Assembly: GCA_012719455.1 (NCBI GenBank)
Contig: JAAYAJ010000095.1
Location: 1 to 51,935 of the forward strand
Reading direction: 5' to 3'
Source of the DNA: Acidobacteriota bacterium
GTDB lineage: Bacteria; Acidobacteriota; UBA6911
DNA: 51,935 bases
Shown here: positions 458-11,137 of the stretch, piece by piece
Numbering within the stretch: position 1 is the first letter of the stretch
Layout of the letters: each line of letters opens with the position of its first letter
Notes under the pieces: generated by a model
The model's database searches: none
What the model was told of the DNA's origin: nothing
The model's input: the letters and a program-made list of their open reading frames with translations, nothing else
Program-made: the position numbers and the translations under genes

Positions 458-1132
458 TTATTTGCCGGCGACAACCTGGTAAGGTGCCAGGCCGTTTTGA
501 ACTGCACAGGGGGAAGGGTATTGGGCCGGCCGATATTGCTCCACAGCCAGTAATGCAAAACCGGCGGCATTAAGCATCGACTCGAGTTCCCGGGGCGGAT
601 GGCAAAAGCATTGAGCCGGGTTGTTCTCAATTAGCAGGTTATCCACTTGGTATTCAGTGAGCCCTTTGTCGGAGTTTACATGTCCAATAAAGAGGACGCC
701 GCCGGGCGCCAAAAGCCTCTCAAAAGCCGAAATCGTCGGGCCGCTCAAATCACGCGGTATGTGCAGGAAGCTCGCAAATAAATAAATTCCGTCAAAACTC
801 CCATCCCGGAAGCATGGCGCCGAAATATCCATGGCGACGGAGCTGATTTCATGTGGCGGCGATTGAATTCCGGCAAAAAACTCAGGAACAATATCGGCTG
901 CAGTAACCGCCAATCCATGCGCTGCAAAAGCCAGGCTGTCGAATCCCAAGCCACACCCCGCATCCAGTACTCGCCGGCCTTTCAAGTGTTTCAAAAACAA
1001 TTCACGGCACCGATCGTGAAAAGCGTGGTCAAAATCGGTGTCGCGGCGCCGCAGCCATTCGGCGGCGATGCGGCTATAGGCCTGGCGGTTTTGGCGAATA
1101 ATCGGGTTCGAATGCTTTCCGGAATGATTCAT
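458..1132 (-). CDS. Class I SAM-dependent methyltransferase, last gene of the nickel-uptake operon
   Basis: This is a 224-residue cytosolic protein. It has the class I methyltransferase motif I VLDAGCGLGFDSLAFA near residues 50-65, followed by the acidic AADIVPEF (motif II) and an LLAPGGVLFIGHV strand typical of the fold. The ATG at 1132 is chosen because it overlaps the stop of the upstream ATPase gene as ATGA; the longer frame to 1231 would run deep into that gene. The substrate is unknown. Being last in a nickel ABC transporter operon suggests a role tied to metal handling, for instance methylating a metal ligand, but nothing in the sequence proves this. An unrelated methyltransferase carried along is equally possible. 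Confidence 0.8.
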   Translation of the reverse strand: MNHSGKHSNPIIRQNRQAYSRIAAEWLRRRDTDFDHAFHDRCRELFLKHLKGRRVLDAGCGLGFDSLAFAAHGLAVTAADIVPEFFAGIQSPPHEISSVAMDISAPCFRDGSFDGIYLFASFLHIPRDLSGPTISAFERLLAPGGVLFIGHVNSDKGLTEYQVDNLLIENNPAQCFCHPPRELESMLNAAGFALLAVEQYRPAQYPSPCAVQNGLAPYQVVAGK

Positions 1133-1809
1133 GGGGTCGCACTCAAGTATAGCAGGCGGTCGCACACTTTTTTTAGTACCCGTTGAGAATGCGCAATGAT
1201 CAGGGCAGTCAACCCATGATGCCTGCGCCACTCCCCGATGAGGTCAAGAATCTGCGCCTGGTTGATTGGATCCAGGGATGAGGTGGGTTCATCCAGAAGT
1301 ACAAATTCCGGATCCAGCATGAATATCCGAATGAGTGCAAACCGTTGTATCTGCCCGGCGCTCAGCTCAAAAGGAAAGCGCATGGCCATGCCTGGTTGAA
1401 GGTTCACCATCTCGCACAATTGGGCGACCCTATGCTGGGCGTTTCCGGTCACGCGGTTTACCGAAAGGGTCTCGCGCAATGTCTCCATGATCCGCCGCCG
1501 CGGGTTAAAAGCCAGCATCGGCTCCTGGGAAATCCAGCCGAAACGCGGCCGCAATTCCCTTTGGGAAGCATGTCGCACATTGCGCCCCTTCCAATAGATA
1601 TCACCTTCCCAGGTGCCCATCAGATTCAACAGCGCCTTGCCAACGGACGTTTTCCCGCACCCGCTGGGGCCGGAGAGGCCGACGAACTCGCCCCTATGGA
1701 CATGAAGGGAAATGGGGCCGGCTACCCAGCGCGGTCGTGAAAAAATGGAACCGCTGCGATAGAAAACCCTCAGATTGCGGGCTTCGATCAGGGGGCTAGG
1801 AGCGCGCAT
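1129..1809 (-). CDS. ABC transporter ATPase, NikE/DppF type
   Basis: This 226-residue ATPase has Walker A GPSGCGKTS near residue 50, Q-loop WISQEP, the signature LSAGQ and Walker B FVLLDEPTSSLD, followed by the switch histidine in LIIAHSQ. All catalytic motifs are intact. It is the shorter of two ATPases that would pair as a heterodimer under the two permeases, as in nickel/dipeptide importers. Its start lies 14 bases inside the upstream ATPase gene and its stop overlaps the methyltransferase start, so translation is probably coupled. It ends soon after the switch region and lacks the C-terminal oligopeptide extension seen in many DppF/OppF proteins. Nickel specificity comes from operon context, not from this protein. 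Confidence 0.9.
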   Translation of the reverse strand: MRAPSPLIEARNLRVFYRSGSIFSRPRWVAGPISLHVHRGEFVGLSGPSGCGKTSVGKALLNLMGTWEGDIYWKGRNVRHASQRELRPRFGWISQEPMLAFNPRRRIMETLRETLSVNRVTGNAQHRVAQLCEMVNLQPGMAMRFPFELSAGQIQRFALIRIFMLDPEFVLLDEPTSSLDPINQAQILDLIGEWRRHHGLTALIIAHSQRVLKKVCDRLLYLSATP

Positions 1810-2596
1810 GAACTTTTCCTTCGCCCGGAACGGCGGAGAGACAAAGATCCGATTGGATCATGAGTTGTGCATACGGATGTCCCGGATTGCTCAAAGCCTG
1901 CGGGCATGGACCATGGGCCAAAATCATCCCCTCTTTCATGAAATAAACGCGGTGCGCCAATTCCGCGACCAGCCTCATATCGTGGGTAATAATCAGCATG
2001 GAGCCGTGGTGGATGCGGCGGAGACACTGAACAACGCTTTCACGGCTGGCATCATCGAGCCCCCGAGTCGGTTCATCCACCAGGAGCAGTTCGGGATCGT
2101 TGATGGCGCTCATCGCCAGCATTGCACGCTGATTCATGCCGCCGCTCAATTGAAAGGGATAGGAGTCGCGTATCAGTTGCGGGTCCGCAAATCCCATCTC
2201 CTTCAATAAGGCGTCCGCTTTTTGCCCGGCACGGGAGCTTTCCGAAGGATGATGTTGCAGGTAGGCTTCACAAATCTGCCTTCCGATGGGCAGAACGGGA
2301 TTGAAAAAGCGCTCGGCGTTGGACCAGCAGATGGAGATTCTTTGCCCGCGAATTCTTTTTGCGGCATTCGTCCGGAGCAGATCCTCGCCGTCAAATGTCG
2401 CCGTGCCGGTGACCTGGGCGTTCCTGGGGAGGAGACCTACAAGGGACAAGGCCAGCACGGTCTTGCCGCATCCGCTTTCGCCGACAAGCGCCACGCGCTC
2501 ACCGGCTTCTATGCTTAGGGAGAGCCTGTCCACGGCGCGGACGTCTTTCTCCGGCGTTTTGAAGACCACGGAAAGATCGCGGACATGGAGACTCAT
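1796..2596 (-). CDS. ABC transporter ATPase, NikD/DppD type
   Basis: This 266-residue ATPase has Walker A GESGCGKT near residue 40, the signature LSGGMNQR, Walker B LLLVDEPTRGLD and the switch histidine in LIITHD. The C-terminal HPYAQLMIQS is the HPYTxxL element typical of oligopeptide/nickel-family ATPases. The ATG overlaps the stop of the binding-protein gene (2593-2596). It is expected to power import through the permease pair at 4125-5916. Membership of the peptide/nickel family is clear. The transported metal is inferred from the NikR-type operator upstream of the operon. Confidence 0.92.
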   Translation of the reverse strand: MSLHVRDLSVVFKTPEKDVRAVDRLSLSIEAGERVALVGESGCGKTVLALSLVGLLPRNAQVTGTATFDGEDLLRTNAAKRIRGQRISICWSNAERFFNPVLPIGRQICEAYLQHHPSESSRAGQKADALLKEMGFADPQLIRDSYPFQLSGGMNQRAMLAMSAINDPELLLVDEPTRGLDDASRESVVQCLRRIHHGSMLIITHDMRLVAELAHRVYFMKEGMILAHGPCPQALSNPGHPYAQLMIQSDLCLSAVPGEGKVHARS

Positions 2597-4125
2597 TCTC
2601 GTTCCCCTGCGAAGCGGATCGCACCCAAATCCATTTTGAGGAAAGGATCTATATGAATTCCTGTCAGGCCTTGTCGGTACGCATAGTAATAGCGTTCGTG
2701 ATATAGGGGCACGAAAGGTTTTTCTTCGGCCAGCAGGTCGAGAAGGGAATGATAGGCTTGATCATGCGCCGACACGTTGGGGGCGTTGAGGGCTTTCTCA
2801 AACAGCGCATCAAGCGGGGCGGAGGCATAATGGGTGGTGTTGCCGATGCTTCGCACCTGCATCCCCTTGGAATAGGCCAATCTCCTGACCAGCAGGTCCG
2901 GGATTCCGGTCGGCAACGATAGGGGATAGAGGGTGAGATCGAAATCGCCGGCCTGGGTGGCCTTTTGCCATGCGCCGCTTTCCAGCATCTCAATGCGGAT
3001 GGAAACGCCCAGTTTGGCAAAGTAATCCGACAGATAGTCGGCGGTATGGCGATAACTCCAGGAGGAAGCATCGCCCTGGCTCAAAAGGAGAGTCAACGCG
3101 TTTCCCTTGCCGAGCGCGGCCAGTTGCCTTTTAACCGGCTCGTCTGTTTCCGGCAGCAGCGAAAAGCGATTCCTGTTCCAGCGGACGGCTGTTTCAACCA
3201 GAAAGTCGCGGGCTGCAATGCCCGATCCATGGAGAATGAGCCGGGCCAATTCATGGCGATCCAGGGCGCGCGAGAACGCATCGCGGGATGCCGGATCGGA
3301 AAAGGGATGCCGGGCGCAATTGAACAAAAGGTAGTGCGTGATGGCAACGTCCTGTGCCGCAACAACGATATCCCTTCTGTCCTTCAGCATGTCCAAATAG
3401 GACGGAGGAACTCCGCCATGGTGGGCAATCATGTCGATATCTCCGCGAAGCAGCGACATGATGCGGACTGCGGGATCACCGATGATCTTGAATTCGATTT
3501 CGCCGAAGTGCGGCTTGACTCCGTGATATTGGGCAAAGGCGGTGACTCGGTCGTATTGTCCAATGCGGCTTTGGGAATAAATGTAGGGGCCGGATCCGAT
3601 CGGACGATCGAGCTTGCCATCCGGACCAAAGGCGCGCGGGCTGAAAACGCCCGCGAAATAGTGACCGAGCCGGTTGGGGAGGTCGACCACCGGGCTGGAA
3701 AACTCCAGATGGATTGTCCATTCATCTTTGGGCACGGCCGAAACGAGGGAGGAAAAAGTGCTGTAGTAATCAAGCTCAGGATGGTTTTTCATTCGGAGCA
3801 GGTTGGCGGTCACAAGACGGCTGTTGAGCCGGTCCCCGTTGTGAAACGTCACGCCCCTTTTCAGGTGGAAGGTCCATTGCCTGCCGTCCGAAGAAACTTC
3901 CCACGATTGCGCCAGGCCGGGCCTCGGCGTCAGGGTATCGTCCAATTCGGTCAGCGTTTCCCAGACATTCGCATTGCGCTGAATGAATACAGGATTGTTG
4001 TTGCCGAGATTCAGAGTGGACCCTATGCCGATAACGAGCTTGTTGGACGTGGCGGGTGAAGGTGAACATGCGGTCGCCGCAAACAAAGCCGTTATCAGGA
4101 TTACGGCCAAACGAAAAAAAATCAT
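2593..4125 (-). CDS. Periplasmic substrate-binding lipoprotein, nickel/peptide family (SBP_bac_5)
   Basis: This is a 510-residue extracytoplasmic binding protein. The N-terminus is a hydrophobic signal segment ending in AATAC, a weak lipobox, so a lipid-anchored protein is likely. Conserved family blocks include ELDDTLTPRPGLAQSWEVSSDG and VTFHNGDRL near residues 60-100, and the C-terminal EKPFVPLYHERYYYAYR. I place the start at 4125, where ATG overlaps the permease stop as TGATG; an in-frame ATG at 4143 is an alternative. The gene lies after both permeases and before both ATPases. It would capture nickel, perhaps chelated, and deliver it to the permeases. Dipeptide or other chelate specificity cannot be excluded from sequence alone. 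Confidence 0.9.
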   Translation of the reverse strand: MIFFRLAVILITALFAATACSPSPATSNKLVIGIGSTLNLGNNNPVFIQRNANVWETLTELDDTLTPRPGLAQSWEVSSDGRQWTFHLKRGVTFHNGDRLNSRLVTANLLRMKNHPELDYYSTFSSLVSAVPKDEWTIHLEFSSPVVDLPNRLGHYFAGVFSPRAFGPDGKLDRPIGSGPYIYSQSRIGQYDRVTAFAQYHGVKPHFGEIEFKIIGDPAVRIMSLLRGDIDMIAHHGGVPPSYLDMLKDRRDIVVAAQDVAITHYLLFNCARHPFSDPASRDAFSRALDRHELARLILHGSGIAARDFLVETAVRWNRNRFSLLPETDEPVKRQLAALGKGNALTLLLSQGDASSWSYRHTADYLSDYFAKLGVSIRIEMLESGAWQKATQAGDFDLTLYPLSLPTGIPDLLVRRLAYSKGMQVRSIGNTTHYASAPLDALFEKALNAPNVSAHDQAYHSLLDLLAEEKPFVPLYHERYYYAYRQGLTGIHIDPFLKMDLGAIRFAGERE

Positions 4126-4988
4126 CAGGTGTCGCTCCCGCAAGACGATGCAGTGCTTGCCAGCATTCGGACCTCTTCAATGGGGAAAAGAAAACGCTTC
4201 CTGTCCAGGAATTCGCGGATCCCGTCCGCGAGCAGGTGCAGCCCGAGAGTGAAAGCGGCAATCAAGGCACAGGGGAAGACAAAGAGCCACGGGCTGTTCA
4301 GGAAAAAGCTTCGGGCATCGAAGAGCACCATGCCCCATTCCGGCGTCTGGGGCGAAACCCCCAGGCCGAGGAAACTCAAGGACACAATGGCAAAAACATT
4401 GCCGACAATCGTATTCAGCATGAGGACCAGCAACGAGGGGATGACGGCCGGCAGCGCGTGCATGAATAAATTGCGCGCAACCGAATACCCAAAAGCCGTA
4501 TTGACGGTTATAAAATCAAGATGTTTTACGGCGGAGATTTCATTGCGGACAATGCGGGACAACTGCGCCCATCCGGTCAAGGCAAGAAACAAGACCAATT
4601 GCAGCGCGCCACCGCCGAAAATGCCGAGAAGGCAGATCGCCAGCAGAAAGCCAGGAAGGGCCAGCAAGGCATCGATGAGACGCATCATGGCCCTGTCCAG
4701 CCATCCCCCCAGATAACCGCAGAGCGCGCCTATGACCAGGGCCAGAAAGGTGTCGATGGCGGCTACGAGCAATGCCAGGCCAAGCGTTGTTCGGGTTCCC
4801 GCCATTAAGCGGCTGAAAAGATCCCTGCCGAGATGGTCGGTCCCCATCCAATGCCCGGGGGAAGGGGGAGCCAATATGTTGCCGTAATCGGACAGGGCGG
4901 GGGGGTAGGGGGCAAAAGCCTCTCCAGTCAGTCCCAACAGGAGAAAGAGAATGACAATGGTTCCGCCGATGCAGGCAATCCGGGGCAT
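4125..4988 (-). CDS. ABC transporter permease, NikC/DppC type
   Basis: This 287-residue inner-membrane protein has about six hydrophobic segments. The N-terminal LAPPSPGHWMGTDHLGRDLFSRLMAG is the hallmark of DppC/NikC permeases (GTDxxGRDxxSR). Near residues 195-230 is LSFLGLGVSPQTPEWG, another strong family marker. The gene begins one base after the stop of the other permease gene and ends at the binding-protein start, so the three are tightly coupled. The two permeases would form the channel through which the substrate crosses the inner membrane. Confidence 0.93.
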   Translation of the reverse strand: MPRIACIGGTIVILFLLLGLTGEAFAPYPPALSDYGNILAPPSPGHWMGTDHLGRDLFSRLMAGTRTTLGLALLVAAIDTFLALVIGALCGYLGGWLDRAMMRLIDALLALPGFLLAICLLGIFGGGALQLVLFLALTGWAQLSRIVRNEISAVKHLDFITVNTAFGYSVARNLFMHALPAVIPSLLVLMLNTIVGNVFAIVSLSFLGLGVSPQTPEWGMVLFDARSFFLNSPWLFVFPCALIAAFTLGLHLLADGIREFLDRKRFLFPIEEVRMLASTASSCGSDT

Positions 4989-4989
4989 A

Positions 4990-5916
4990 TCAGCCTAATC
5001 TTTCTTTCGCGACACGGGGATCCAACCAGCGTACCAGCAAGTCGGCGGAGAGGTTGCATGCCAGGACCACGGTTCCGATAAAAAGAATGTACGCCTGGAT
5101 CACCGGCAGGTCCCGGCTTGAGATCGCTTCCAGGATGTAACTTCCCATTCCGGGCAGGGAGAACATGGTTTCGATCAGCACAAGGCCGCCCAGAAGACCG
5201 GCAAAGCGCATCGCAAGGTACGTTACCATGAGGGATAGGACATTGCGCAAACCATGCCTGAGGACGGCTTGCGGATAGGACAGGCCTTTGCCCAGAGCCG
5301 CCAGGAAATGCTCTTCGTGGACTGTCTCCAGCAAGGCATTCCTCAAGACGCGCGCAAGCGACAGCCCCATAATGCCGCCCAGTGTCAGGACGGGAAGGAT
5401 AAGCCCGCTGCCCCCACTGACGCCATAAAGCGGCAACAACTCCAGCTTGAATGAAAACAGGTAGAGAGCAAAAAGCCCGACCAGGAAAGCGGGAACCGAA
5501 TGGAACAGGGATGCGGTGATCCGTACGGCGTGATCGACAAATCCTCCTTCATGCAAGACACAGGGAACTCCCAGGACAAACCCGGTGATGGAGGCAAGAA
5601 CAAGGGCGCCGAACGCAATAAGGGCGGTTATGGGCAGGCGCGCGGCAAACTCGGTAAGAATGGGGCGGTTGGTTTTCAGCGACACGCCCAGGTCGCCGAA
5701 AAGAATACTCTTCAACCACCCCAGGTAACGTTCCGGAAATGGAGCATCAAGGCCCTGCGCGCTCCGGATCCTGTCCAGGGCTTCAGGCGCTATTTCCTGA
5801 GCCGTACCCCCCAGAAGAAGCCGGGTTGGATCGCCCGGCGCCAGATCCACGGCAAGGAAGGAAACAAAGCTGACAAGGACCAGGGTCAAAAAACATGAGA
5901 TTAGTCGATGTGCCAT
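4990..5916 (-). CDS. ABC transporter permease, NikB/DppB type
   Basis: This 308-residue inner-membrane protein starts with a hydrophobic segment containing FLAVDLAPGDP, the DppB/NikB N-terminal signature. The DLGVSL element, the ATPase-contacting loop around AALGKGLS, and LVLIETMFSLPGMG follow the family pattern. It lies 16 bases downstream of the TonB receptor gene, so the receptor and transporter are probably on one transcript. The ribosome binding site is weak, which fits coupling to translation of the receptor gene. Confidence 0.93.
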   Translation of the reverse strand: MAHRLISCFLTLVLVSFVSFLAVDLAPGDPTRLLLGGTAQEIAPEALDRIRSAQGLDAPFPERYLGWLKSILFGDLGVSLKTNRPILTEFAARLPITALIAFGALVLASITGFVLGVPCVLHEGGFVDHAVRITASLFHSVPAFLVGLFALYLFSFKLELLPLYGVSGGSGLILPVLTLGGIMGLSLARVLRNALLETVHEEHFLAALGKGLSYPQAVLRHGLRNVLSLMVTYLAMRFAGLLGGLVLIETMFSLPGMGSYILEAISSRDLPVIQAYILFIGTVVLACNLSADLLVRWLDPRVAKERLG

Positions 5917-5932
5917 ATATCATGGGCGCCGC

Positions 5933-8095
5933 TCAGAATCGGTAGTTATAGGTAGCGCGCATTTCCACGAAGCGGCCCGGAGCATTATATATGAACTCGC
6001 CGTCGTACTTGGAATTCGTCAGATTGTCGACGCCGACGGAAAAGGTGATGCTGTTGCCGTCATTCAAACGTACACTCTTCCGGACCTTGGCGCCCAGGGT
6101 CATGTATTCCTTCATGAAAAAATAATCGAGATTGGTGTTATCGTCATCGTAATAGCGGGTATCGGAGAAACGGCTGTAGAAAGTGGCTCCAAACCCTCTT
6201 CTCCGGTTGTCATACTCAATTCCAAAGCCTCCATGGTAATCGGGCGCATTGCGCAATTGGTTCCCCTTGTTTTTTGCAGACCGGGTGATTTCCGAGCGGT
6301 TCAGGGTGAAATGAACGTATCCGCTTAGATCGGAAACGATTTGCTGGCGCAGGGAAAGCTCCAAGCCCTTGATGGAGACCTCGTCGGAATTGGAGGTCCG
6401 GATGACTTGGACGCCGGGCAGTGTCGGATGCTGGTCATACACGTAGTTCATGGCGTCGCGGATACGGCCGAAGTAAGGAGTCGCGGAGGCCTGGGTGTGT
6501 CCATTCGCGCTGATATAATCGACGCCGAAATCGACCATCAGGGTCTTTTCCGGTTTTAGTTGCGGATTGGCCTCGCGCCAGGTGTTGCCGGTGGAGAGGT
6601 TCTGGAAAAACCAGGTGGCATTGCCCGGCCAGAAGGCATTGCCGACCGATGTGCGAAATCCCCAGGAATCATTGAGCCGATACTTGAACCCGCCTCTATA
6701 GGTTGTCGCGGACTTCCGCACGTCCGGCGGCGTCTGGTTCGTGGAGCCGCTGTCATACACATCGTGGTAGTTCCACCTGTCGTGCCGCATGCCGACAATC
6801 AGCGTGGCCTTGTCGTTCAGGAAGCGGATCTGGTCCTGTATATATACCGCGGTTTGTCCAATGCCGTACTTGGTATGCGCAAGTGTTGCGCTGCGGTCGG
6901 CGTTATAGGTGAAGGAGCGGCTTTGATCGATCAGATCGGTAAATCCGACCGTGATGCTGTTGCCGGCGAAGGGACGGAAATCCATCTGGAAATCCAGCGG
7001 GATTCTCGTGTAGGTCGAATGAGGCCGCCGCGTGATGGTCGGGTCATAGACATAGCTGTTGTTCTCATCGATCGGGCTGAAGACATAGCGGCCATTGATG
7101 GCGGAATTGGCCACCTTCACCGATCCCCTTGTGCCCACCGAATCAGAACGCCGGCTTTGATAGCCGAATCGGAAAGTGAAAGTGCCCACACGCGGAATAG
7201 GCGCATAGAATGAGCCGGTTGAAACAACGCGAATCCCGTCACTATAGACCATGGAACGCCCACCGTATAAATCTTCACCGAATAGGTGGGCGCCGATGGT
7301 GAAGCCGATTCCATTGTTCGGATTGCGGTACCCGATTCGGCTGTAGCCGTAATGGTTCGTGTAATGCTGGTCCTCGATATTCACCGAATTGAGGTAGGAG
7401 GGATAGCCGTTCTTCATCAAATAGACGCCGGTAGCCAGGTCGGTGTTTTTATAGCCGTCGGAGGTGTCCACATTGTAGGAGCCAAAAAAATCCCAGTTGC
7501 CGATTTTTTGGCCGATGGAGAACTGGGGCCTGTATGTGTTGAATGTTCCATAGCCGATGCCCAGGGATATGCCGGTACGGTCGCGGCCGTTCAGTGATCG
7601 GACATTGACGACTCCGCCGCTGGCATTCGCTCCATACAACGACGAGGAGGGGCCGAGCAGGACTTCCGCGGATCCCACGTTGGCAGGATTGACGGCGATG
7701 CTGACCATCGGCTCCGCCAGCGGGATCTCATCGACCATGTAGAGTGTTCGTCCAATAAAATAGCCGGTGCCGCGCAGATGAATCCATGCCGGGATATTCC
7801 GGTTCCCATGCCCTACCGAAACTCCGGGTGCATCGCGGACAATTTCGCCGATATTCAGGTTGTTGAACTGCTTGCTTTCAATTTCATTCCCCGGAACGAG
7901 CTGAACGCTGACCGGTAAATCATCGATCCTGGTCTCGGTCTTCGTCGCGGTAACAACGACGATATCATGACGCGTACGAATATCCTGGCTGCTTTGTTTC
8001 TCATCCATCTCTTCCCCGGCCGATTGCTGCTGGCTTGATGCCGGAAGAGTCCCGAGCAAGAGGAACAAGAGCGCCATAAATAAACGCTGGTACAT
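5933..8095 (-). CDS. TonB-dependent outer-membrane receptor, probably for a nickel chelate
   Basis: This 720-residue outer-membrane protein starts with a signal peptide (residues 1-23, ending at LPASSQ). A TonB-box-like DIVVVTATK near residues 46-54 follows, then a plug domain with VRDAPGVSV and the YGANASGGVVNV segment. A long beta-barrel ends in the aromatic NYRF, as expected for outer-membrane assembly. The start at 8095 is chosen because AAGGAGG precedes it at good spacing; an upstream in-frame ATG at 8170 would add a non-hydrophobic stretch before the signal peptide and lie upstream of the operator. A NikR-type operator lies 30 bases upstream of the start. TonB, ExbB and ExbD are not encoded here. 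Confidence 0.93.
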   Translation of the reverse strand: MYQRLFMALLFLLLGTLPASSQQQSAGEEMDEKQSSQDIRTRHDIVVVTATKTETRIDDLPVSVQLVPGNEIESKQFNNLNIGEIVRDAPGVSVGHGNRNIPAWIHLRGTGYFIGRTLYMVDEIPLAEPMVSIAVNPANVGSAEVLLGPSSSLYGANASGGVVNVRSLNGRDRTGISLGIGYGTFNTYRPQFSIGQKIGNWDFFGSYNVDTSDGYKNTDLATGVYLMKNGYPSYLNSVNIEDQHYTNHYGYSRIGYRNPNNGIGFTIGAHLFGEDLYGGRSMVYSDGIRVVSTGSFYAPIPRVGTFTFRFGYQSRRSDSVGTRGSVKVANSAINGRYVFSPIDENNSYVYDPTITRRPHSTYTRIPLDFQMDFRPFAGNSITVGFTDLIDQSRSFTYNADRSATLAHTKYGIGQTAVYIQDQIRFLNDKATLIVGMRHDRWNYHDVYDSGSTNQTPPDVRKSATTYRGGFKYRLNDSWGFRTSVGNAFWPGNATWFFQNLSTGNTWREANPQLKPEKTLMVDFGVDYISANGHTQASATPYFGRIRDAMNYVYDQHPTLPGVQVIRTSNSDEVSIKGLELSLRQQIVSDLSGYVHFTLNRSEITRSAKNKGNQLRNAPDYHGGFGIEYDNRRRGFGATFYSRFSDTRYYDDDNTNLDYFFMKEYMTLGAKVRKSVRLNDGNSITFSVGVDNLTNSKYDGEFIYNAPGRFVEMRATYNYRF

Positions 8096-8124: not shown

Positions 8125-8151
8125 GTGTTACGAATGGGAAAAAGGTAGCAC
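8125..8151 (-). promoter_or_regulatory. Probable NikR operator upstream of the nickel-uptake operon
   Basis: On the plus strand GTGTTAC (8125-8131) and GTAGCAC (8145-8151) are separated by exactly 13 bases. This is one mismatch from the GTGTTAC-N13-GTAACAC site reported for Geobacter-type NikR (recalled family knowledge). The symmetry extends one TA on each side. On the minus strand a weak promoter (TTGCGA, 17-base spacer, TACCTT) overlaps it, so bound Ni-NikR would block transcription when nickel is plentiful. No nikR gene is in the window. Confidence 0.75.
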
Positions 8152-8366
8152 TATGGCGATGCCGTCGCAAGGATTATTTCCCAAATAGTGATATTCGCCG
8201 CCGGAAGTCGGGGCGCGGGATTTCCGGCGGTGTGCAAGGGAGGCCGTGCCTCAAACGGTTCCATTGCGAACCAGGTGGCTGATTTAATTGGATAGGATCG
8301 TATACATGCCGACGAGATGCAGCCCGCGCCGGCGTTGAGAGCGGGAACCCGGGGGGCAAGCGCAGG
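8152..8366. other. Intergenic region spanning the base-composition boundary
   Basis: The AT-richer nickel region ends in this stretch and the GC-rich backbone begins. Apart from the upstream part of the nik promoter I see no gene. The short ORF at 8174-8359 has no recognisable motif. No tRNA, direct-repeat attachment site or insertion-sequence end is visible. Confidence 0.5.
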
Positions 8367-9003: not shown

Positions 9004-9768
9004 TCAGTGGACGCTGACGTCGGTCCTGGCCATGGAGTACCTTCGGCCGCAGCGCGGGCATTCGATCTCGATTTGCGGCAGGTCGCCGAACAGCTCCCGG
9101 AGGTCAGGCTCCGGCATGCCGAGGATCATGTCGAGGACCATCTCATCCGAACAGCGGCACTCGTAGAAAAGGACCACCTCGCCCAGTTCCCTGAGGCGCC
9201 CGGCGGCCGCTGCGGAATCGAAATATCGGATCACGCCCCCCGGCTCGAGCGCCTCGACCATGTCGAACCGGCCGCCGGGGAGGGCATGCACCAGGATGCC
9301 CTCCCCGGCTTCGGTGATCTCCAGGCGGGTCTTCGTCTGGACCACTTCCGCGAAATACTGCTCGACCATGTCGCGCGGGCTCCGGGTCCGCGGGCGGAGG
9401 TGGCTCTGGGTCATCGGCATGCCCTCCTTCTGGCGCTGGACCATGATGGAGGCCCTGGATGTTTCGGCCGCGCGTGCACGCACGCACACCATCCCCTCCG
9501 GTTCGATCCCGACGAAAAAGCCGATGTCCATCCCCTCGAAGGTGAGCGACCATCCCCAGGACTCCCTTTCGGCAAGGGACAGGGCGCCGAGCGCGGTGGC
9601 TGCAAGCAGTTCCCGGGTTAGGGGGCCGAGGTTGGGCTGGGGCGGTTCGATCCCGTGGCGTTCATGGTAGGCCTTCATGCCGGCGAGCATGGGGGCGACG
9701 TTTCCGCGCACCACCAGCAGGTGATGTTCCTGGTCCAGAGAGCGCTTGTAGAGTGCCAGGTGGTTCAT
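9004..9768 (-). CDS. hslO: Hsp33-like redox-regulated chaperone, shorter than usual
   Basis: This 254-residue protein resembles Hsp33, a cytosolic holdase activated by oxidation. The C-terminus carries CRC and, 30 residues later, CPRC, matching the CxC-x27-32-CxxC zinc/redox switch. The N-terminal half has the ELLAATALGALSLAERE helix and GMDIGFFVGIEPEGMVCVRA, which parallel the Hsp33 core. It is shorter and more divergent than the usual roughly 290-residue proteins, mainly in the first half. The ATG at 9768 has GGGAGG just upstream; the in-frame extension to 9903 lacks such a site and would start beyond a hairpin. It lies downstream of the deoxyhypusine-synthase-like gene on the same strand. 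Confidence 0.8.
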   Translation of the reverse strand: MNHLALYKRSLDQEHHLLVVRGNVAPMLAGMKAYHERHGIEPPQPNLGPLTRELLAATALGALSLAERESWGWSLTFEGMDIGFFVGIEPEGMVCVRARAAETSRASIMVQRQKEGMPMTQSHLRPRTRSPRDMVEQYFAEVVQTKTRLEITEAGEGILVHALPGGRFDMVEALEPGGVIRYFDSAAAAGRLRELGEVVLFYECRCSDEMVLDMILGMPEPDLRELFGDLPQIEIECPRCGRRYSMARTDVSVH

Positions 9769-9888
9769 GGGGCCTCCCCGACATGGTCGGTCTTTTTGAG
9801 AAGGGCGGCTTCGCCGTATTTCATCATGAAGGAGTCTTCTTCGTACCGGACCCGGATCCTGTATTCTGTGCGCGCGTGCCGGGGATGG

Positions 9889-9918
9889 CTGACCCGCCGG
9901 CACTGACCGGCGGGTCAG
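9889..9918 (-). terminator. Perfect 12-bp GC-rich hairpin after the DHS-like gene
   Basis: CTGACCCGCCGG (9889-9900) pairs perfectly with CCGGCGGGTCAG (9907-9918) around a 6-nt loop. It begins 8 bases past the stop of the DHS-like gene and lies upstream of the Hsp33-like gene. There is no T tract, so it may be a Rho-assisted terminator or an mRNA-stabilising structure. Confidence 0.6.
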
Positions 9919-9925
9919 CGCCCAG

Positions 9926-10918
9926 TCAGTCGGCGAGAACGTACGCGAAGACCAGGGGGGCCACGATCGTGGCGTCGCTTTCTATGATGTACCTCCGCGA
10001 ATCGAGGCCCAGCTTTCCCCAGGTGATCTTCTCGTTGGGAACGGCGCCGCTGTAGGAGCCGTACGAGGTGGTGCTGTCGGAAATCTGGCAGAAATAGGAC
10101 CAGAGGCGGCATTCCATCCTGAGGTCCAGCCGGATCAGGGGCACGGCGCAGATGGCAAAATCCCCGGCGATGCCGCCGCCGATCTGGAAAAAGCCCATTT
10201 CACCGGAGGCGGACTCCTCCAGGTACCAGTCGATCAGCGCATCCATCGTTTCCAGTCCCGATTTCACGATCGTATAATCCTTCAGGCGTCCGCTGCGGAC
10301 GCACGAGACGAAGAAATTGCCGAGCGTGGAATCCTCCCACCCGGGGACGAAGATGGGAATTCCCTTTTCACAGGCGGCCGCCAGCCAGGAATCGGTTTCC
10401 TGGATCTGGTAATGATGCGCGAGCGCCCGGCTCCGGATGATGTCCATGATGAATTCAGCGGGAAAGCACCGGCGTCCCTCGTCCTGCGCTTTTTTCCAGA
10501 AATCGAAAATCACCCCCTCGACCTTCTTCATGGCCGCATCTTCGGGAATGCAGGTGTCCGTGACCCGGCTCATCTTGTCGTGGAAGAGGGCCAGTTCTTC
10601 CTCCGGCTTCAGCTCCCTGTAATTGGGCACCCGCCGGTATTGATCATGGGCGACCAGGTTGAAAAGGTCCTCTTCCAGGTTGGCCCCGGTGCAGGACACG
10701 GCGTGCACCTTGCCGCCGCGGATCATGGCGGCGAGGCTGATGCCGAGTTCCGCCGTGCTCATGGCGCCCGCCATCGCCAGCATCATCTTTCCTCCGCTAC
10801 GGACATGGTCCGCGTAGGCCTCGGCGGCATCTACCAGGACAGCGGAGTTGAAGTGGCGGTAGTGGTGTTTGAGGAAGGACTTTACCTGGGGAAAGCTGGA
10901 ATGGTTGCCGTCATGCAT
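9926..10918 (-). CDS. Deoxyhypusine synthase family protein (bacterial polyamine-transfer enzyme)
   Basis: This 330-residue cytosolic protein belongs to the deoxyhypusine/homospermidine synthase fold. The AGAMSTAELGISL and CTGANLEEDL blocks correspond to NAD/spermidine-binding segments. ITWGKLGLDS carries the lysine (K302) equivalent to the imine-forming active-site lysine of deoxyhypusine synthase. The eukaryotic substrate eIF5A is absent from bacteria, so a small polyamine acceptor is more likely, as in homospermidine synthase. The ATG at 10918 is chosen because AGGAG lies 6 bases upstream; the ORF extends to 10942 without such a site. No polyamine gene adjoins it. Catalytic competence is well supported; substrate is not. 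Confidence 0.85.
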   Translation of the reverse strand: MHDGNHSSFPQVKSFLKHHYRHFNSAVLVDAAEAYADHVRSGGKMMLAMAGAMSTAELGISLAAMIRGGKVHAVSCTGANLEEDLFNLVAHDQYRRVPNYRELKPEEELALFHDKMSRVTDTCIPEDAAMKKVEGVIFDFWKKAQDEGRRCFPAEFIMDIIRSRALAHHYQIQETDSWLAAACEKGIPIFVPGWEDSTLGNFFVSCVRSGRLKDYTIVKSGLETMDALIDWYLEESASGEMGFFQIGGGIAGDFAICAVPLIRLDLRMECRLWSYFCQISDSTTSYGSYSGAVPNEKITWGKLGLDSRRYIIESDATIVAPLVFAYVLAD

Positions 10919-11137
10919 TGAAATCTCCTCATGAGGGTTCACCGGGGTGAGTTTGGTTTCCGAAAAGCCGCCGGGCCGGATGCACTGAAAAGGTCATGGG
11001 GCCGGTGTGCCAGCGGGGAGCCGGACCGCGGTGCATGGCTCAACCGTTGCTGTCATCCTGGAGACAAAACGGCTGAACCGCCCGCCATGGGACTGTAACC
11101 TATCCCGAACGTTTGTTCAACCGGTTTGGCTCCACGC

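Follow-up and report, generated by a model that had tools for sequence, protein, structure and literature searches.

In delta-proteobacteria, the NikR signal has been published as GTGTTAC-[N13/14]-GTAACAC (PMC545781), and in Geobacter and Desulfovibrio it controls NikMNQO or NikKMLQO transporters and a hydrogenase. The E. coli NikR operator reads GTATGAT-N13/14-ATCATAC (PMC545781). Outer-membrane receptors under predicted NikR control have been described in Helicobacter (FecA3, FrpB4, and NikH, cited in PMC11247825), and in cable bacteria a TonB receptor directly upstream of a Nik/Opp/Dpp importer has been proposed to serve nickel uptake and appears to have been laterally acquired (PMC11247825). 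NikR-controlled TonB receptors and a receptor beside a Nik/Opp/Dpp operon proposed for nickel are already known, and an operon with these parts is therefore not a new kind.

We analyzed a window of 51,935 nucleotides from an acidobacterial contig, JAAYAJ010000095.1, in which a predicted NikR operator precedes a receptor and transporter operon. Like the delta-proteobacterial operators, the site matches GTGTTAC-N13-GTAACAC within one mismatch and lies a short way upstream of transporter genes, and the genome has a nikR; unlike them, it precedes a TonB receptor and a Nik/Opp-type importer, in an acidobacterium. Predicted NikR control of an outer-membrane receptor is shared with Helicobacter, and the receptor-importer order with cable bacteria, whose operon is not known to have a NikR operator. 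A search of cable bacterium genomes gave no match to the binding protein at 1e-45. As in E. coli nikABCDE-nikR, a five-component importer of the same superfamily is placed under NikR, but the E. coli system has no receptor and no methyltransferase, and nikR is unlinked in the window genome. What is new is a cassette of receptor, ZnuA/ABC-3 importer, and SAM-methyltransferase adjoining nikR in relatives (G007, G011), which is deleted in the window genome, where the low-GC operon with its Nik/Opp-type importer carries the same operator elsewhere.

A predicted NikR operator precedes the receptor gene

The earlier note on this DNA had singled out GTGTTAC-N13-GTAGCAC as a near-perfect Geobacter-type NikR operator, and we confirmed the repeat at its exact coordinates (Table 1), with a single mismatch to GTGTTAC-N13-GTAACAC. 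The site does lie close to the receptor start, at 29 bases rather than 30 when counted to the likely ATG at 8095, which is preceded by AAGGAGG. The N13 and N14 spacings given there for the motif are published (PMC545781), while N16 did not appear in the literature searched. "Geobacter-type" holds for the operator class and fails for the organism, which groups with the Acidobacteria.

No other sequence in the 2.79-Mb genome comes within one mismatch of the motif; a scan for further copies, as the earlier note proposed, returned no second one. Allowing up to three mismatches gave 13 other matches, every one with three mismatches, and the chance expectation for such matches in the window is 0.34. 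The window site scored 26.4 bits against a profile of nine relatives' operators from which the window was left out, sites that are not fully independent, as some reflect recent common descent and they were collected with the motif in mind. On the same profile, the best of 2.0 million positions from a Markov model reached 14.0 bits and the next-best position in the portion of the own genome that was scored 13.5 bits. The latter (C95:2404-2430, L014) lies inside the start of a short open reading frame reading like ribosomal protein L28, and we took it as chance. The extended half of the operator, GTGTTACGAAT, is common to genus-mates. The palindrome is strongly supported as the predicted binding site of this genome's own NikR, although no orthologues of the window receptor turned up. 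As to the further claim that this single site gives a confident nickel-uptake prediction, one site alone would not suffice; the relatives make the case, and nickel as the substrate has to be inferred.

The operator is followed by a receptor, an ABC importer, and a methyltransferase

Seven minus-strand genes lie downstream of the operator, with gaps that are short or overlapping (Table 1). The plug and barrel domains of the first product place it among TonB-dependent receptors. The next five genes form one unit of a family 5 binding protein, two BPD_transp_1 permeases, and two ABC ATPases, placing them in the Nik/Opp/Dpp ABC importer superfamily. For all five ABC subunits the top NCBIfam model is a nickel model, with other family models, including peptide models, close behind. 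All five fall below the curated NikABCDE equivalog cut-offs (NikA 150 against 393 bits, NikB 226 against 447, NikC 212 against 358, NikD 181 against 319, and NikE 141 against 333). The binding protein is 25% identical to E. coli NikA by pairwise alignment, and in an alignment of such low identity the residues that we take to be the NikA ligand positions (R97, W100, R137, W398, Y402, and H416) are not kept. We placed the methyltransferase start at an ATG overlapping the ATPase stop; the longest open reading frame starts at 1231. To our knowledge, the Helicobacter receptors do not stand in one unit with their own ABC importer and methyltransferase, and the letters of the Helicobacter NikR operator differ from those in the window. 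Elsewhere in the window, a deoxyhypusine-synthase-like gene (9926-10942, Pfam DS) was found, in a bacterium, and the neighboring gene (9004-9903) matches HSP33 in part.

Table 1. Positions of the predicted operator, candidate promoter, and operon genes in the window.
Feature	Coordinates	Strand	Basis
Predicted NikR operator, GTGTTACGAATGGGAAAAAGGTAGCAC	8125..8151	.	7-13-7 inverted repeat, one mismatch
Possible promoter, TTGCGA (8165-8170)-N17-TACCTT (8142-8147)	8142..8170	-	By eye; weak; -10 inside operator
TonB-dependent outer-membrane receptor, 720 aa	5933..8095	-	Plug and beta-barrel Pfam domains
ABC permease, Nik/Opp type, NikB position	4990..5916	-	BPD_transp_1; best NCBIfam Opp2B nickel permease, 273 bits (below cut-off 350)
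ABC permease, Nik/Opp type, NikC position	4125..4988	-	BPD_transp_1; best NCBIfam Opp2C nickel permease, 226 bits (below cut-off 300)
Solute-binding protein family 5, likely lipoprotein	2593..4125	-	SBP_bac_5; best NCBIfam nickel_nikA, 150 bits (below cut-off 393)
ABC ATPase, NikD position	1796..2596	-	ABC_tran; best NCBIfam nickel_nikD, 181 bits (below cut-off 318.7)
ABC ATPase, NikE position	1129..1809	-	ABC_tran; best NCBIfam nickel_nikE, 141 bits (below cut-off 332.6)
Class I SAM-dependent methyltransferase, last gene	458..1132	-	Methyltransf_23/25/11

The genome encodes NikR and nickel enzymes

The earlier note had proposed looking for nikR in the genome, and it is present, on a different contig from the operon (C4:970-1377). 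The encoded protein has an RHH domain and NikR_C, scores above two curated NikR equivalog cut-offs, and in alignment conserves the four nickel ligands of E. coli NikR (H76, H87, H89, and C95). Also encoded are two [NiFe]-hydrogenase-type proteins: a large subunit with the motifs RICGIC and DPCISC, adjoining a small subunit, and a second protein with RVCGIC and DPCYSC; these are nickel-binding motifs of [NiFe]-hydrogenases. No CbiM/NikM importer was found in the genome. Near nikR lies a weak site, GTGGCAC-N13-GTAACAA (9.4 bits on the relatives' profile), which is kept in G000 and G011 with a spacer that mostly differs. Such conservation is as expected for autoregulation of nikR, though the score is low.

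The operator is conserved before receptors in related genomes

The closest named NikR loci were found in metagenome-assembled Acidobacteria. If a weaker copy in G008 is included, five genomes of the same genus or family have the N13 operator ahead of a TonB receptor, as do two more distant members of the class. In G007, G011, and G002 it separates divergent nikR and TonB receptor genes, and in G009 it precedes an operon of receptor, ABC, and methyltransferase genes. The receptor gene comes after nikR in G240 and G108, where the operator has the form GTATTAC or GTATTAT-N13-GTAATAC; weaker versions precede receptors at L045 (G008), L047, and L048. The receptors in these genomes are not orthologous to that in the window. 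With N14 spacing as a control, there were 0 matches in 38 class genomes, and around nikR genes of other phyla the palindrome peaks at N13 and N14 only. Co-occurrence of site and NikR across genomes was modest (p 0.019; 0.045 without the window), and three genomes with one-mismatch matches (G075, G098, and G159) had no detected NikR.

We also noted variation in the site and its reader. In G008, a half-site is turned round about 90 bases before nikR (GTAACACCAATATATAATTCGTAATAC, L134 6528-6554), and everted NikR sites have been reported in Desulfotalea (PMC545781). Comparing NikR N termini (L039 and L040 with L032-L037), LIRLSF or LVRLSF in the DNA-binding strand goes with GTATTAC half-sites, and NikRs with LIRTGI go mostly with GTGTTAC half-sites. 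Residues of this strand may possibly be linked to half-site specificity.

Searches for orthologues of the window receptor found none in the order at E 1e-40, none in 396 phylum genomes at 1e-60, none in a scan of named genomes with receptor peptides, and none in plasmids at 1e-30, where weaker matches were mostly plug-only. For the binding protein, the 396-genome phylum sample yielded none at 1e-50, nor did 50 NikR-bearing genomes at 1e-45, the latter a search without a positive control.

A native cassette is missing from the window genome

Downstream of the operator, G007, G011, and G009 have a cassette that opens with a receptor gene, continues with a ZnuA-like binding protein, an ATPase, and an ABC-3 permease, and closes with a SAM-methyltransferase. 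The same cassette type adjoins nikR in G014, where the receptor is preceded by no more than a degenerate site with three mismatches, and is present in G010, where NikR and operator were not detected. NikR-linked cassettes of this composition lie at L027 10272-15392, L028 3966-9097, L030 13293-18700, and L046 7484-13066. In such cassettes, a ZnuABC-type importer occupies the place where a nickel importer would be expected.

The flanks of the native cassette's place are collinear between the window genome and G011 (78.6% and 88% identity), and the 4.9-kb cassette is missing, with a 0.45-kb repeat-rich stretch in its place. At the deletion place relative to G011 and G007 (L016 1605-2190, on C4 of the window's genome), a 69-base receptor remnant accompanies the repeat-rich stretch. 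No homologue of the ZnuA-like protein was found in the window genome at E 1e-10; five genus-mates have one. The operon has a GC content of 55.9%, versus 64.9% for the rest of the contig, where pieces of operon length never fall below 62.3%. Because the native cassette is deleted, the operon is low in GC, and no close relatives of it occur in 396 phylum genomes, the simplest reading is that the operon is a horizontally acquired replacement for the native NikR-linked receptor/ZnuA-type cassette.

Proposed regulation and function

Six of the nine relatives have, by eye, a clearer TTGNNN-N17-TAGTNT before the receptor, with the operator beginning inside the presumed -10. NikR binding in these relatives would therefore block the promoter. 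In the window, the corresponding elements (the candidate in Table 1) are weaker, and a consensus promoter scan reported neither them nor any other promoter. By analogy with the NikR family, nickel-loaded NikR would act at the operator as a repressor. With enough nickel, NikR would bind at 8125-8151 and block the promoter of what is presumably one seven-gene transcription unit; when nickel is scarce, the unit would be expressed. The receptor and the Nik/Opp-type importer would then bring nickel through the outer and inner membranes, probably in chelated form, and supply the cell's [NiFe]-hydrogenases. The operon, acquired horizontally, would stand in for the lost native cassette.

We consider this whole reading, a NikR-repressed, horizontally acquired replacement operon that imports nickel, probably as a chelate, to be likely. 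Its computed parts are the site, NikR, operator conservation before receptors, loss of the native cassette, and foreign composition. We infer nickel as the substrate, and its form, rather than reading them off the importer, because the subunits fall below the NikABCDE cut-offs and the NikA ligand residues are not kept in the low-identity alignment.

Alternative explanations

We give next to no weight to a chance palindrome: the thirteen weaker matches show that loosely similar sequences occur in the genome, but none of the 2 million model positions came near the score of the window site, whose position relative to the gene start is the same as in relatives. It is also very improbable that the palindrome is read by some other regulator that recognizes a similar sequence and that the operon serves iron, haem, or peptides. 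Among NCBIfam models, the receptor most resembles siderophore and haem receptors, all below cut-offs, and among solved structures its best relative is PhuR, a haem receptor. In relatives, however, the element adjoins nikR itself and precedes different receptors, and its letters and spacing agree with the published NikR signal (PMC545781).

Two alternatives accept the operator as true. The contig could be chimeric or misbinned, with the operon coming from another organism with a similar NikR; the low GC, the sharp GC change at the end of a metagenome-assembled contig, and the lack of relatives in the 396-genome phylum sample would fit. We regard this as unlikely, since the operator's extended half GTGTTACGAAT is shared with genus-mates and the native NikR cassette is absent, which a replacement would predict. 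The cargo could instead be a metal other than nickel, or a mixed complex (cobalt, zinc, or a metal-peptide chelate), restrained by NikR only because the system admits nickel as well. Subunit scores below the Nik cut-offs with peptide models close behind, the NikA ligand residues not kept in the 25%-identity alignment, and the relatives' use of the same operator before a ZnuA-type importer, whose family is mainly associated with zinc and manganese, lend this some weight. It remains the lesser prospect, as the targets of NikR sites in the literature searched are nickel transporters or a hydrogenase that does not depend on nickel (PMC545781), and the genome has nickel enzymes and no CbiM/NikM importer.

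A possible exchangeable cassette under NikR

A class I methyltransferase ends NikR-linked receptor cassettes with a Nik/Opp-type importer (the window) and with a ZnuA/ABC-3-type importer (G007, G011, G009, and G014), and also that of L059. At L059 (3788-6846, beside nikR) a TonB receptor, a small membrane protein without a Pfam match, and the methyltransferase were observed; the membrane protein is possibly a third importer type in the same layout. The window and relatives' methyltransferases are just 23% identical. As a guess, the methyltransferase might act on the imported chelate. Tentatively, and at somewhat less than even chances, we suggest that NikR in Acidobacteriota controls an exchangeable nickel-uptake cassette made up of a receptor, an importer, and a SAM-methyltransferase, in which the importer is swapped among Nik/Opp, ZnuA/ABC-3, and perhaps the third membrane protein while operator and methyltransferase stay. 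No such cassette with a methyltransferase was met in the limited collection of literature searched. If the suggestion is true, some ZnuABC-like importers would transport nickel under NikR control, and the handling of the imported chelate would include a methylation step.

For Nik/Opp-type operons, peptide and metal transport usually cannot be told apart from sequence, and for this one the operator allows a testable assignment to nickel, with the outer-membrane step included. ZnuA-type importers and the methyltransferase may be unrecognized parts of nickel uptake, in a regulon whose operator would persist as the downstream transporter is exchanged.
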